IMG/VR virus record: IMGVR_UViG_3300049825_000379
Coordinates: 1-28,982 of that record
Source: a virus
Reading direction: 5' to 3' (one strand)
DNA length: 28,982 bases
Each line of letters begins with the position of its first letter. Positions within the stretch are counted from its first letter, which is position 1. Positions 21,405 through 27,484 of this stretch are shown here, piece after piece. The position numbers and the translations under genes are program-made. Under the pieces are notes generated by a model. It was not told the DNA's origin and searched no databases. It saw nothing but the letters and a program-made list of their open reading frames with translations.

Positions 21405-22226
21405 ATGACTCTTGTTTTGCAAGAACCCTCCGAGCGCGAGCTGAGCGCCGACTATTTTGATGCGGATGGCATCAATTGGTCGACGCTGAAGGCGATGCGA
21501 GAGAGCCCGAAAGCTTACCTCTACGCAGCCGAAAACGACCGCGAAGACAAGATTTCCTTCATGGTCGGGCGCGCGGTGCACACGAAAGTTTTCGAACCGG
21601 ATTTATTCGATGCCGAGTTCGCCATCTGGACCGAAGGCGACCGCCGCGGGAATGCCTGGAAAGCGTTTGCCGAGGCGCACGCGAGCAAGACCATCCTGAA
21701 GACTGACGAGATGATTCTCGTGGACGCGATGGTCGCCGCAGTTCGCAACGATCCTGTCGCGAAGCCTTTCCTTTCCGGCGTATTCGAGCGGCCTATTTTC
21801 TGGATCGACCCGACCACTGGATTGCTCTGCAAGGCGCGGCCTGACATGGTCGACAAATTCAAAGAACGCGTGGTCGACCTGAAGACGTGTCGCAGCATTG
21901 ATCCTCGCCGCTTCGGCAACGACTGCGCGCGGCTTGGGTATCACCTGCAGATGACGCACTACTCGAACGGCGTGAAGACTGGTCTCGGGTGGGAGCCGAA
22001 AGAGCATGTGCTGATCGCGGTGGAGAAAGCGCCGCCGCACGATGTTGGCGTGTTCTTGATTTCGGCCGTCGACATTGGCAATGCGGCCGAGGAAGTGGCT
22101 GCGCTGCTCGTGCGCGTCCTGGAATGCACCGAGGATGGTGCGTGGCCTGGTCGCTTTTCCGAGGTGCAGGAACTGCAAATTCCGTCGTGGGTGAATGGCG
22201 ACGTGGAAATCGAGGAGATTCAGTAA
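21405..22226 (+). CDS. PD-(D/E)XK exonuclease, RecE-like
   Basis: The 273-residue protein carries the nuclease core: GRAVHTKVFEP (residues 55-65), KARPDMV with catalytic Asp147, VVDLKT with Asp158 and Lys160, and LGYHLQMTHYSNG with Gln182. This is the order seen in RecE/lambda-type exonucleases and the PDDEXK family annotated DUF3799. It probably degrades one strand of linear DNA to make overhangs for annealing. AAGGAACGAGAC precedes the ATG. The next gene overlaps it (TAATG) and is the likely ssDNA-binding partner. Confidence 0.85.
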   Translation: MTLVLQEPSERELSADYFDADGINWSTLKAMRESPKAYLYAAENDREDKISFMVGRAVHTKVFEPDLFDAEFAIWTEGDRRGNAWKAFAEAHASKTILKTDEMILVDAMVAAVRNDPVAKPFLSGVFERPIFWIDPTTGLLCKARPDMVDKFKERVVDLKTCRSIDPRRFGNDCARLGYHLQMTHYSNGVKTGLGWEPKEHVLIAVEKAPPHDVGVFLISAVDIGNAAEEVAALLVRVLECTEDGAWPGRFSEVQELQIPSWVNGDVEIEEIQ

Positions 22227-23356: not shown

Positions 23357-23646
23357 AAGACAGCGAGATTTTCCTGAGGGCGGCTGAGACTTGCGCCCTT
23401 CCCGTGGAGACCTGGAGCGACGAACACTATTATTGCGCGTGTCCGGCGATAAGCAATGCTGGCGATTACGGCCCAGCGGCAAATCGACTGCGGAAAGAGT
23501 TCGAGTTGATGTTCATGCCTCAAAGACCGGGTCCAGATGGTGAGTGGTTCGGCAAATATTACGGCCAGAACGCAGCCAACAACAGCCACTATCGCGTGAT
23601 CGCGCTTGGGTTCATGGCCGCTATCGCCGCCGACGAAGGGCGGTAA
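23353..23646 (+). CDS. Small phage protein, 97 residues
   Basis: ATG 23353 overlaps the preceding stop (ATGA); a longer frame starting upstream only reads through that gene. The protein (MKDSEIFLRAAETCALPVET onward) has an N-terminal helix, a Cys pair YYCAC and a C-terminal helix HYRVIALGFMAAIAADEG. Proteins with this layout recur in phage accessory operons, but I cannot name the family. It ends 3 bases before the tnpB start codon. Confidence 0.68.
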   Translation: MKDSEIFLRAAETCALPVETWSDEHYYCACPAISNAGDYGPAANRLRKEFELMFMPQRPGPDGEWFGKYYGQNAANNSHYRVIALGFMAAIAADEGR

Positions 23647-23649
23647 GCC

Positions 23650-24696
23650 ATGAAGCTGACTTTCAGGTATCGGGTGAAATCGATGAACGGGTTGCTAAAT
23701 AGGCAAGCCCGCGCGGTCAACTTCGTCTGGAACTATTGCAACAACGTCCAGAAGCACGCTCTGAAATGGGGCACGAAGTGGCCTAGCGGCTTCGATCTCA
23801 ATCGCCTTACCACCGGCTCATACCATGAGCTTGGGATCGCATCCGGGACCATAAACGAGGTTTGTGAGAGGTATGCGAAGTCCCGCTTTCAGCAAAAGAA
23901 GTCGCACCTTCGTTATCGCGGTAAGCGCTCCCTTGGTTGGGTGCCAATGAAGGGCTACTTGGTTAAGCAAAGCCCGGACGGTTTTGTGTTTCAGAAAAGG
24001 TTGTTCCGAATCTTTAAGAGCCGGCCTTTGCCGGACGGCAAGATATGCGACGGAAGCAACTTCAGCGAGGACGCCAAGGGAAACTGGTTTCTGAATATCG
24101 TTGTTGAGGTCGCCGATACTCCTGCGCGCAGCGTGGAATCCGGGATCGGCATTGATCTTGGTCTGAAGGATTTCGCAACCCTTTCGACTGGCGAGAAAGT
24201 CGAAACTCCGCGCCACTACCGGCGCATTGAGGAACGACTGGCGACAGCCCAGCGGGCACGAAAGAAGCGCCAAGCGAGAAACCTTCACGCGCGCATCGCT
24301 GCTCGCCGCAAAGACTTCCTTCACAAACTCTCGACGCGCATCGTTCGGGAGTTCGACCACATCGCCGTGGGCAACGTGAATGCGGCCGGACTTGCCAAGA
24401 CCAGCATGGCGAAATCCGTACATGATGCAGGCTGGTCTAACTTTAGAAACATGCTCCATTACAAAGCCATTGGGCACGGGGCGTCATTTGAAGAGGTTAG
24501 TGAAAGTTTCACCTCCCAAACCTGCTCTTCGTGTGGTGCGCTGCCACCGGAGAGGCCGAAAGGTATCGCGGGTTTGCGAATAAGAGAGTGGGTTTGTGGT
24601 GACTGCGGGGCCGTCCACGACCGCGACACAAACGCAGCTATCAACATTCTCCGACGCGGGCATGCGTCGCTTGTAGAAGGAGTCAGTGCACCATGA
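23650..24696 (+). CDS. tnpB: TnpB-like RNA-guided nuclease (IS605 OrfB family), no TnpA
   Basis: The 348-residue protein has an N-terminal OrfB-type region (NRQARAVNFVWNYCNNVQKH), RuvC-I IGIDLGLKDFATL with Asp169, a zinc finger with Cys292, 295, 316 and 319, and RuvC-III HDRDTNAAINIL with Asp326. In TnpB these bind an omega RNA and cut DNA. The usual RuvC-II Glu is Gly241 (IAVGNVNAAGL). Glu281, 282 and 285 lie 40-44 residues later, the region where Fanzors and some TnpBs carry a relocated catalytic Glu, so the enzyme may still be active. It sits in the operon without recognisable element ends, and its stop overlaps the next ATG. A CGACGC/GCGTCG hairpin lies at 24652-24669 in its 3' end. Confidence 0.9.
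   Translation: MKLTFRYRVKSMNGLLNRQARAVNFVWNYCNNVQKHALKWGTKWPSGFDLNRLTTGSYHELGIASGTINEVCERYAKSRFQQKKSHLRYRGKRSLGWVPMKGYLVKQSPDGFVFQKRLFRIFKSRPLPDGKICDGSNFSEDAKGNWFLNIVVEVADTPARSVESGIGIDLGLKDFATLSTGEKVETPRHYRRIEERLATAQRARKKRQARNLHARIAARRKDFLHKLSTRIVREFDHIAVGNVNAAGLAKTSMAKSVHDAGWSNFRNMLHYKAIGHGASFEEVSESFTSQTCSSCGALPPERPKGIAGLRIREWVCGDCGAVHDRDTNAAINILRRGHASLVEGVSAP
24652..24669 (+). ncRNA. Hairpin at the 3' end of tnpB, possible omega RNA element
   Basis: CGACGC and GCGTCG pair around the loop GGGCAT within the last codons of tnpB. TnpB guide RNAs usually come from the 3' end of the gene and the adjacent element end, so this hairpin is a candidate scaffold piece. No right-end boundary or guide start could be located. 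Confidence 0.3.
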
Positions 24697-24947
24697 CTGA
24701 AGATGCCAAGACCGATACCAAGACGCCGACTCCGCGAGTGGATGGGTTATTGCTGGTAATAAATGAGGGGCGCGTGACCGGACCGAACGCCCGGTTGCAG
24801 AACTCGCCCGCACCCTTGAGCGAGAACTGGCCGAGGCGAATGCGACGATCCGCAGCCTGCGTAGACAACTTGCCGATGCCGACCGGCAGATTACGGGAGA
24901 TTGACATGACCACCACCCCGCCGCTTGACCCTGTGAGGGAGAAGTAA
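24693..24947 (+). CDS. TPR(T/V)D-type phage protein, probably frameshifted
   Basis: The frame starts MTEDAKTDTKTPTPRVDG, typical of small phage proteins that continue into a LARxLEREL coiled coil. Here that coil (VAELARTLERELAEANATI then RSLRRQLADAD) lies in the -1 frame at 24767-24904, open but without a start codon. The annotated frame instead continues through unrelated residues to VREK. A one-base change near the GAGGGG run (24765-24770) would restore a protein of about 70 residues. It may be a broken gene, a sequencing error or a programmed shift. The last codons carry the ribosome binding site of the next gene. Confidence 0.55.
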   Translation: MTEDAKTDTKTPTPRVDGLLLVINEGRVTGPNARLQNSPAPLSENWPRRMRRSAACVDNLPMPTGRLREIDMTTTPPLDPVREK

Positions 24948-25286
24948 ATGCACTATGAACTGAGGCTAGTGCGCCCGGAAGGCACTAGTACCGAGCAATC
25001 GATTTTGCAGCAGCGCTATGCGCCCGATAACGGTTACTGGTGCGAATGGCACCGCGTCCCCGTGCTATGCGTTCCAAAGGAAGAGTTCGACGCAATTAAG
25101 AATCGTGGTCGCGAAACCTCAGAAAAGATGGAGCCCATCTGGGTGCAAATCAACACGGCCATCAACGAACTTCGCAACGCGGAATTTTCGGCTGGGCAGA
25201 CTGAAGAAGTGGAAATGCAGACTCAAGCCGACTTGGCCGCAGAACATCTGATTCGACTCATCCAACGCATCAAGGGGGCGAAATGA
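24948..25286 (+). CDS. Unknown phage protein, 112 residues
   Basis: ATG directly follows the previous TAA, with GGGAG 6 bases before it. The N-terminal part is beta-type (MHYELRLVRPEGTSTEQSIL then GYWCEWHRVPVLCVP). The C-terminal half is a charged helix (EEVEMQTQADLAAEHLIRLI) that may form a coiled coil. The stop overlaps the next ATG. No family recognised. Confidence 0.68.
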   Translation: MHYELRLVRPEGTSTEQSILQQRYAPDNGYWCEWHRVPVLCVPKEEFDAIKNRGRETSEKMEPIWVQINTAINELRNAEFSAGQTEEVEMQTQADLAAEHLIRLIQRIKGAK

Positions 25287-26065
25287 CGACAGTCACACGT
25301 GAACAGTTGCAGAGGCTGATTGCGGCGAACATGTTGCGCTCCGAGTTGGTCGACGCGCACGCAGCGAACACGTTGCTCGCCATCTACAGGCTGGCCATTA
25401 GCGGACTCGAAGCCGAAGAGGGAAGGTTGGTTGCACGCTCAGAGTTTGATGCGCAGCAAGTCGCTCACGGGCAAGCTGTTGACGAACTTGCCGACCTCCG
25501 CGCGCAGGTAGCAGAGCTAAATGAGTTCGCTGGGAAGTGGTACTGCGAAAACCATCCACTAGAACTGATGGGGCACGATGGCTGCAGGGGCGGTGGGATT
25601 CTCGGTTGCGCCCGCGTCAGCCAGGCAGAAAATCGGCTGCGCCTTGCAGAGCAAGCGGAGCGTGAATCGCATCGGTGCTTCGGGGACCTGCTTATGCAAG
25701 CACGTCAGCGCTGCGCCAAATTGGAATCGCAGGTAGCAGCAAGAGAATCAGAGGTGTTGGCGTTGCGTGAGGCGCTGGAAGACATCGGAGGCGATTGGAC
25801 TCCTGATCCAGACGCGCTGGAATTGTGCATCACGGAGATGCAAGAGGCGGCGCGAGAAGCACTCACCGACACCACCCCCTCCACCACAGCCACCCCCGAG
25901 CGCATTGAGCGGGAGGCGACGGACCGCATTTTCGATCACTGCAAGGTCGTGTATTACGGGCTGAATGCTGAGTACCCGCTGGAACACAACCCGCTCGCAA
26001 AGAAGGAATGCCGCGCTGACATCAAGCGCGCGATTGCCGAAATGATTGCACGCAAAGAAGGATAG
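25283..26065 (+). CDS. Coiled-coil phage protein with small Cys/His motif
   Basis: The 260-residue protein has heptad-rich helices at about residues 60-80 and 112-170, interrupted by WYCENHPLELMGHDGC and LGCARV, which could bind zinc. A Thr/Pro-rich linker (DTTPSTTATPE, near residue 199) separates a C-terminal helical domain. A modular make-up joined by Pro/Thr linkers is common in phage accessory proteins of the Ea22-like type. The exact function is unknown. ATG overlaps the preceding stop. Confidence 0.7.
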   Translation: MTTVTREQLQRLIAANMLRSELVDAHAANTLLAIYRLAISGLEAEEGRLVARSEFDAQQVAHGQAVDELADLRAQVAELNEFAGKWYCENHPLELMGHDGCRGGGILGCARVSQAENRLRLAEQAERESHRCFGDLLMQARQRCAKLESQVAARESEVLALREALEDIGGDWTPDPDALELCITEMQEAAREALTDTTPSTTATPERIEREATDRIFDHCKVVYYGLNAEYPLEHNPLAKKECRADIKRAIAEMIARKEG

Positions 26066-26069
26066 AACC

Positions 26070-26399
26070 ATGAGCGACAAAGCCACAAGAGAACTTGAAG
26101 TCCGCACCATTCTTACCCATCGGTGCGGGCAGTCTTTATCGCCGGACTTGATCGACAAGCTATGCGAAGAATTCAACGCGGCAATGGATTCGGGCCCATG
26201 TGCGTGGGCGTTCAATAACGCCCAACTCCGCGCCGACCTCGCCGCGCGAGAAGAAGATTGCATAACGATGACGTTTCGTCTGATGGGTGAGGATGTGGAC
26301 TCGTTTTCACCAGAGACACGCGAAGCGTTCCTTCGCTGGCAACCAAAGGCGTGGGAGCGGCTTGGCGGCAAACCGGAGGACAACACATGGATCAAGTGA
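26070..26399 (+). CDS. Unknown phage protein, 109 residues
   Basis: ATG 26070 starts MSDKATRELEVRTILTHRCG. The protein is mainly helical (LIDKLCEEFNAAMDSGPCAW then ARAD-like NAQLRADLAAREED) and ends in a Trp-containing segment. A slightly longer start upstream (26046) overlaps the previous gene. Its 3' end overlaps the next gene by 13 bases, and a GGAGG inside it serves that gene. Confidence 0.68.
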   Translation: MSDKATRELEVRTILTHRCGQSLSPDLIDKLCEEFNAAMDSGPCAWAFNNAQLRADLAAREEDCITMTFRLMGEDVDSFSPETREAFLRWQPKAWERLGGKPEDNTWIK

Positions 26400-27484
26400 A
26401 TGAACTGTTTGAGGCATGGCACCGCGAAAAGTACGGGACGGCCACCTTTGATCGTCAATACAACCGCTTTAACGCGGCGCTCATTACCTACGCACCAGAG
26501 GAGATTCAACGCGACTTTGAAGCATTTGAAGCTGGTACTACTGACCTCGCCGCGCGGGATGAGAGGATCAAGCAGCTTGAAACAAACGTTGCTGAGGCAT
26601 ACGGCCATCTGTGGCACGTTAACAATGAACCGCTTGCACCAGTGCCGCTCTACTCTCCCGCCAAGGCTGCGTATGAAGCGCGAAAGATACTTCGCGACTC
26701 CATTACGCATGAGCAGCGCGGGCAAGGCATAGCAAATACTCAGCACGTTTGGGGAGACGTCACGAACACTGCGGCGCACGCAATAGTTGACACCCCACCC
26801 CTTCCCTCGCAGCCCCAGGACGAAGTGCAGCGATGGCCGATTCGCATGCCGAAGGCGTTGCATCGCGACACGAAAGCCCTCGTCTCCGGGTTCGCTACGG
26901 CACTCGCTGAAAAGCTTCACGCGGCCGAGCAGAAATATGGTTATTCGAACGGCTGGGATAACCCGGACTGGATGGACGAGTGCCGTGCCAAATTGCGCGA
27001 GCATCTCGACAAAGGCGACCCGCGCGACGTGGCGAACTACTGCGCATTCCTGTGGTATCACGGCGCGTCCACGAAACAACCTGTAACCACTGGGGCTATC
27101 GTTGGAGAAATTGTCAATGCGCGGCACGCTGAAGCCATGCGCAAATTGTATCCCTCCACCCCCTCGCAGGAACGGCCCCAGGTGAGCGAGGCGGGGGATG
27201 TGGAGACCAGGGAGATTTTGCTCAGGACCGCGCGGTTGATGATCACGCTGTACCGAGGGGCGGCCTACAAGCTGCGCCAGTACAACGTCCCAACGCCGAT
27301 AGCAGAGGTGGAATGGTTCCGAGAGAACGAGAAATACACGCGGCCATGGTTGCTTGTCGCTAGCCGACTGCTGAAGATTAGCGGAAGCGATTGCCCCCAC
27401 CCTGAGAACGATGAATGGCTAAGCAAACTAGAAGCTGCCGCTGACACCGCCCTTCGGCAAGCGGGGAAGGGAGAGGGAGCGTGA
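26387..27484 (+). CDS. Mosaic phage accessory protein, Ea22-like module
   Basis: ATG 26387 has GGAGG 7 bases upstream; the GTG at 26351 is rejected. The 365-residue protein consists of a helical N-terminal part, a Pro-rich linker near residue 140, a central module (ATALAEKLHAAEQKYGYSNG then WMDECRAKLREHLDKGDPRD and VANYCAFLWYHG) conserved in phage Ea22-like proteins, a second Pro-rich linker, and a helical C-terminal segment. The function of the central module is not known. The layout suggests shuffled domains. Its GTGA end couples the next gene. Confidence 0.72.
   Translation: MDQVNELFEAWHREKYGTATFDRQYNRFNAALITYAPEEIQRDFEAFEAGTTDLAARDERIKQLETNVAEAYGHLWHVNNEPLAPVPLYSPAKAAYEARKILRDSITHEQRGQGIANTQHVWGDVTNTAAHAIVDTPPLPSQPQDEVQRWPIRMPKALHRDTKALVSGFATALAEKLHAAEQKYGYSNGWDNPDWMDECRAKLREHLDKGDPRDVANYCAFLWYHGASTKQPVTTGAIVGEIVNARHAEAMRKLYPSTPSQERPQVSEAGDVETREILLRTARLMITLYRGAAYKLRQYNVPTPIAEVEWFRENEKYTRPWLLVASRLLKISGSDCPHPENDEWLSKLEAAADTALRQAGKGEGA

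Follow-up and report, generated by a model that had tools for sequence, protein, structure and literature searches.

The window analysed here is the whole of the IMG/VR virus record IMGVR_UViG_3300049825_000379 (28,982 nucleotides, nt). Its positions 23650..24696 hold a coding sequence of 348 amino acids, tnpB, which is on the plus strand, as are the codons, RNA elements and downstream ORF located below. Profile matches, alignment, an AlphaFold2 (AF2) model and structural matches indicate that the product is a TnpB protein with a RuvC nuclease domain and a zinc ribbon, in which the canonical catalytic glutamate (Ecan) is replaced by an alternative one (Ealt). Because genes for a terminase, a portal protein, a replicative helicase/primase and a RecE-like protein are also present, the record is a tailed-phage genome or a fragment of one. 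A first-pass annotation of the window had described the gene as embedded in an operon with 3-base and overlapping junctions, and this is what is found: the upstream gene stops with TAA at 23644-23646, 3 nt before the tnpB ATG at 23650, and the ATG at 24693 of the downstream open reading frame (ORF; 24693..24947) overlaps the tnpB TGA as ATGA. The start codon of the downstream ORF also lies inside the segment of a predicted omega-RNA.

The ORF product matches the Pfam families OrfB_IS605 and Cas12f1-like_TNB and the NCBIfam model guided_TnpB, the latter at 239 bits where the cut-off is 100. The Pfam TNB match and the family alignment place the zinc-ribbon cysteines at C292, C295, C316 and C319 (24523..24606). 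An AF2 model built from 68 sequences reached a mean predicted local distance difference test score (pLDDT) of 91.6; a first model built from 13 sequences was too poor (pLDDT 67) and was discarded. The best structural matches of the retained model are ISDra2 TnpB (8exa; Z 25.8 over 302 residues, root-mean-square deviation 2.5) and the mimivirus Fanzor2 (9b0l; Z 25.1 over 327 residues). As modelled, the product is a full-length TnpB with the TnpB/Cas12f fold. It resembles ISDra2 TnpB (8exa, 8bf8, 8h1j), a member of the omega-RNA-guided nuclease family, in fold and in the equivalents of D169 and D326, but ISDra2 TnpB carries the canonical Glu where the phage protein has Gly241 and, instead, E285.

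Relatives were gathered from viral contigs and bacterial genomes, and the active-site positions were counted in an alignment of 68 members. The RuvC-I Asp169 (codon 24154..24156, DLG motif) and the RuvC-III Asp326 (24625..24627) are invariant (68/68 each). Gly241 (24370..24372) falls on the catalytic Glu of ISDra2 TnpB (..IIGTEHLK..) in a phmmer alignment in which D169 and D326 are conserved, which confirms the earlier reading that it occupies the canonical RuvC-II Glu position; this position is G in 67/68 members and E in one. Position 285 (24502..24504) is E in 67/68 and Q in one, and the single exception is the same protein both times, that of locus L051. Because this pattern is reciprocal across the 68 members, the loss of the Glu at 241 and its replacement at 285 are not a matter of chance, and there is good evidence in the alignment, although from a single relative with the canonical Glu, that E285 took over the catalytic role. 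The first-pass annotation had placed the moved Glu 40-44 residues downstream, at Glu281, 282 or 285, and only the last of these is upheld. E281 is rejected because the position is variable (E in 29/68), and E282 is unlikely, being E in 63/68 members and V or I in the remaining five, whereas Glu at 285 and Glu at the canonical position replace each other. The exceptional relative (L051:4054-4770), with a canonical RuvC-II Glu (VENL) and a Gln at the Ealt position, provides a useful natural contrast.

In the published arrangement, Ecan is located ~50 residues upstream of the zinc finger and Ealt six residues upstream (Yoon et al. 2023, PMC10711439). The spacing E285-SFTSQT-C292 fits this rule exactly, with six residues before the first zinc-binding Cys, and the earlier statement that Fanzors and some TnpBs use a Glu relocated by such a distance agrees with that report. 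The catalytic Glu has also been located in the loop directly before the TNB domain (PMC11423790); in the AF2 model a strand at 279-283 is followed by E285 in the corresponding loop, and this position and the global superposition are compatible with E285 lying close to the two Asp in space. Proteins with Ealt fall into two clades, with D-Phi-G and DPG, respectively, at RuvC-I (PMC10711439). The motif of the phage TnpB is DLG, and the combination of DPG and Ealt that defines Fanzors and pro-Fanzors is not found. None of 118 family members matches the published Ealt regular expression exactly, because the spacings of the family lie outside the allowed ranges, and 111 match with relaxed spacings. 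With no canonical Glu and a Glu six residues before the first CxxC, the phage TnpB is by sequence a member of the Ealt clade. It shares the position of the Ealt Glu, the fold and a right-end RNA (reRNA, or omega-RNA) with a pseudoknot with Ealt TnpBs, pro-Fanzors and Fanzor2 (PMC10711439; PDB 9b0l), but differs from them in having DLG rather than DPG, in its shorter length (348 residues), in spacings outside the published pattern, in the IS200/IS605-type ends of its relatives and in its phage host. As judged from the alignment, the moved Glu is real, already known in kind and a trait of the family, not peculiar to the phage of the window.

The 3' part of a predicted omega-RNA scaffold (24644..24709) overlaps the 3' end of tnpB. 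It was delineated from an alignment of 34 members that covers 66 nt up to a conserved CAA end, and it terminates with ..ATGCCAA where the relatives mostly have ..AYGTCAA; an Rfam scan of the window matched no family. The alignment supports a 6-bp hairpin, formed in the window by CGACGC (24652-24657) and GCGTCG (24664-24669) around the loop GGGCAT, with changes on both sides in all 6 pairs. It also supports a 5-bp pseudoknot between the loop and the terminal AYGYC, formed in the window by GGCAT (24659..24663) and ATGCC (24703..24707), which covaries and is 100% paired in the 34 sequences. For the two elements together, 99.5% of the alignment cells are paired, the covariation score is 0.673, as compared to 0.189 in shuffles and no more than 0.112 in slid controls, and the window sequence forms all 11 pairs. 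The partners of the pseudoknot change in step: loops with GACGT are found with ACGTC ends and those with GACAT with ATGTC, while in the window, in L008 and in L040 GGCAT is joined by ATGCC, giving a G-C pair where most members have A-U, and some GGCAT members retain ATGTC via a G-U pair. Because the pseudoknot partner also changed, the TCAA to CCAA change that would spoil the right end of an insertion sequence (IS) is accommodated in the scaffold. The hairpin lies within coding sequence and the pseudoknot joins coding with post-stop sequence; since one strand lies past the stop codon, coding constraint alone does not explain the pseudoknot. In ISXfa1 a pseudoknot of this kind is required for activity, as demonstrated by compensatory mutation (PMC10711439). 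The 3' end of the phage gene is therefore predicted to specify the hairpin and pseudoknot of a TnpB omega-RNA, and the scaffold appears to be under selection, kept by compensatory change.

The relatives belong to a family that is abundant in Burkholderiales, with 13 matches in the genome of Burkholderia sp. MS389 (locus L111) and 40 in a metagenome-assembled genome of Malikia, where the count takes in fragments and TnpBs that are more distant. When 80 chromosomal loci were compared in pairs, the shared units mostly began ~60-165 nt upstream of the ATG, in many cases near -97, and extended to ~17-21 nt past the stop codon, between unrelated flanks. Their left ends have a hairpin after TTCAT, with T before TCAT in 46/59 recognised ends, and their right ends close with GAYGTCAA. 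By these sequence features the family consists of tnpB-only elements of the IS200/IS605 type (the IS1341-like group) that occur in multiple copies in Burkholderiales chromosomes. The first-pass annotation had stressed that the gene lacks a TnpA partner. No Y1 TnpA is present in the virus record, but, as the family is tnpB-only, this absence is ordinary. In Burkholderia sp. MS389, matches to Y1_Tnp are only partial or marginal (a 40-residue piece with 28.8 bits, and 22.9 bits in a 273-residue frame). The phage TnpB shares with the chromosomal elements the TnpB family (~62-71% identity), the Ealt site and the omega-RNA architecture; it differs in having neither left end nor TCAA and in being embedded in a phage operon.

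The window copy no longer has the ends of an intact IS200/IS605 element. No left end was detected upstream of it with a left-end profile, the upstream gene stopping 3 bases before the ATG, so that the hairpin next to TTCAT is missing, and the right end closes with CCAA instead of TCAA. The nearest relative of the protein is 71% identical. Relative to its nearest relatives, the window copy has ~0.25 nonsynonymous (dN) and ~2 synonymous (dS) substitutions per site, a dN/dS of ~0.12 at saturated dS, and only three otherwise invariant residues differ in the protein (Y5F, V121I and Y237H). Because the left end is absent, the nearest identity is 71%, the branch in the tree is long, dN is low and invariant residues have seldom changed, the copy looks like an old one that is neither decaying nor mobile as an IS. 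The earlier suggestion that the gene may be domesticated gains support from the lost left end, the altered right end, the operon coupling and the compensated scaffold, and none from the moved Glu or the absence of TnpA, which are not special. What is unusual is the state of this copy, with no left end, an altered right end, operon junctions, purifying selection and a compensated scaffold, while Ealt is known and the lack of TnpA ordinary.

We propose, with a probability of about 0.6, that the gene encodes an immobilised, phage-captured Ealt TnpB (D169-E285-D326) that is probably active as an RNA-guided nuclease and carries a single built-in guide. The phage would have captured it from a Burkholderiales-type, tnpB-only IS200/IS605 element; with the left end lost and TCAA changed to CCAA, mobilisation as an IS should no longer be possible for this copy, while selection appears to maintain both the protein and the omega-RNA scaffold. 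Processing of the operon transcript at the 3' end of tnpB would probably yield an omega-RNA with ATGCCAA at the end of its scaffold, and a fixed guide would begin right after it, at 24710. The predicted guide, GACCGATACCAAGACGCCGA (24710..24729), follows from the scaffold end and lies inside the 5' part of the next ORF. That ORF (24693-24947) is frameshifted in appearance: its start, MTEDAKTDTKTPTPRVD.., and its coiled-coil-like tail, ELARTLERELAEANATIRSLRRQLADADRQITGD, are read in different frames. We infer TTCAT to be the target-adjacent motif (TAM) of the family. The complex would cut DNA in which the guide sequence stands next to a TTCAT-like TAM and would spare its own locus, which has CCAA and no TAM; in an empty allele the predicted target is the TAM followed by GACCGATACCAAGACG. 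Such cutting could shield the allele or keep related phages out, serving homing or inter-phage competition.

Several points weigh against this proposal. Neither a target nor an empty site was found in the collections searched. Exact 18-nt matches to the guide occur in three viral contigs, each without a TTCAT-like TAM, and were rejected as targets, being probably a coding coincidence around DTKTP. A search for an empty site through the neighbouring phage genes 23353-23646 and 24948-25286, or through the DNA at 24697-26500, failed to bring up any relatives; those that exist for the gene at 22226 do not share the region downstream, and a short peptide of the ORF after tnpB gave zero matches. Where the relatives have a terminal GC hairpin, the window has a weaker and weakly supported one (24681..24700; ~5 bp, -5.1 kcal/mol, shuffle p ~0.055), whose sequence is unlike theirs. 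With dS saturated, the estimate of selection mostly records the past of the family at large, with the period after capture making up only a part of it. In the tree, the protein has a long branch close to the root of the Burkholderiales clade, a placement that does not establish direct descent from a chromosomal copy. Because no close relatives of the phage turned up in the collections searched, stable residence of the gene in one phage lineage would be conjecture.

The strongest competing explanation is that tnpB is a passenger, left over from an old IS and functionless in the phage today. The absent left end, the altered right end, the long branch and the lack of a detectable target are all compatible with it, but the ORF is intact, dN/dS is low, the catalytic positions are kept and the pseudoknot change is compensatory; because protein and scaffold are both constrained, we consider a passenger unlikely. 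Two more operon-embedded phage copies (L008 and L010), which are not its sisters in the tree, also argue against it by suggesting recurrent retention. Less probable still is the nuclease-dead alternative raised by the first-pass annotation, in which TnpB and its guide would bind and silence a promoter. Phage-borne TnpB derivatives in such a role exist, namely the phage-encoded, fliC-associated TldRs (PMC13418256), which likewise reside outside an IS, and the window copy has lost the canonical Glu and has no TnpA. TldRs, however, are defined by an inactivated RuvC domain and occur in association with a partner gene, for example fliC, whereas here no such partner is seen, the D-E-D set appears intact in its Ealt form, with E285 in place of the lost Glu and both Asp residues invariant, and the scaffold of the guide RNA has been kept. 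Together, the RuvC set and the scaffold weaken this alternative. Guide matches give it no clear support. Those of the window guide in viral contigs have no TAM, and an automatic guide-to-own-locus scan, which covered the 121 copies with a recognised right end and hence not the window copy, yielded isolated 10-mers only, apart from repeats in L047 and L222. Only one of these copies, L176, has a guide match (10 nt) beside TCAT upstream of its own gene; it was set aside as weak, since the same 10-mer recurs in the ORF of L176 and resembles a recurring Shine-Dalgarno complement. An ordinary recent insertion of a tnpB-only IS200/IS605 (IS1341-like) element is very improbable even though the family is multi-copy and mobile in Burkholderiales chromosomes, for, as the first-pass annotation had supposed, tnpB is no recent IS copy: the left end is absent, the right end has neither the usual GC hairpin nor TCAA, and the nearest copy is 71% identical in protein.

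The loss of the left end is not confined to the window. By profile, a left end was recognised in 74/80 chromosomal copies versus 6/27 phage copies of the clade, and after clustering at 90% in 17/20 versus 4/22 (Fisher p 3e-5), but the profile was trained on chromosomal copies and favours them, so that the true contrast is probably smaller; a plausible left-end hairpin in L189 was missed by it. A generic hairpin finder separated left ends poorly, and the profile result was used instead. Most phage copies of the clade retain the right-end/omega-RNA sequence. Coupled operon junctions recur in L010, and in L008 there is an overlap with the gene that follows. Two phage copies, L013:3949-5009 and L016:2532-3592, share a segment of 99.7% identity that opens one base ahead of the ATG, closes with TCAA and comprises exactly the ORF and 17 further nt; their flanks are unrelated, and neither has a recognised left end. 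Such near-identity in unrelated surroundings points to precise movement, so that cassettes without a left end can still change place. A tentative generalisation, which we regard as possible rather than probable, is that phages repeatedly stripped tnpB-only IS of the left end while keeping nuclease and omega-RNA, and that the products are free-standing, homing-type cassettes, extending from the start codon to ..YCAA, for which the phage flanks serve as guides; the window copy would be an operon-embedded example with a compensated scaffold.

Two further features were observed among the relatives. In some elements of the family an ORF of ~43-50 amino acids for a ribbon-helix-helix (CopG-like) protein directly precedes tnpB, often overlapping it (L097:4867-5004, L098:4837-4998, L122:4858-4992, L147:4873-5004 and L151:4840-5004, and also in L177, L181, L183, L184, L185 and L012); it may be read as an accessory regulator in a tnpB-only IS. 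Among the chromosomal loci L096-L175, TCC or CTC occurs 4-13 nt past the element end in 40/73 inferred guides, a count for which there is no background rate, as if the elements often adjoined antisense ATGAA start codons (TTCAT), with the Shine-Dalgarno region as the guide.

The family represents a compact (~348 residues) lineage of Ealt TnpBs with an active-site layout like that of Fanzor, and a relative of the L051 type, with the canonical Glu, allows a direct comparison of the two arrangements. If it is true that phages keep TnpB and its omega-RNA after discarding the transposon, TnpB would be selected there for cutting alone, as a homing or exclusion nuclease, and the nuclease-dead TldRs would have a nuclease-active counterpart in it.
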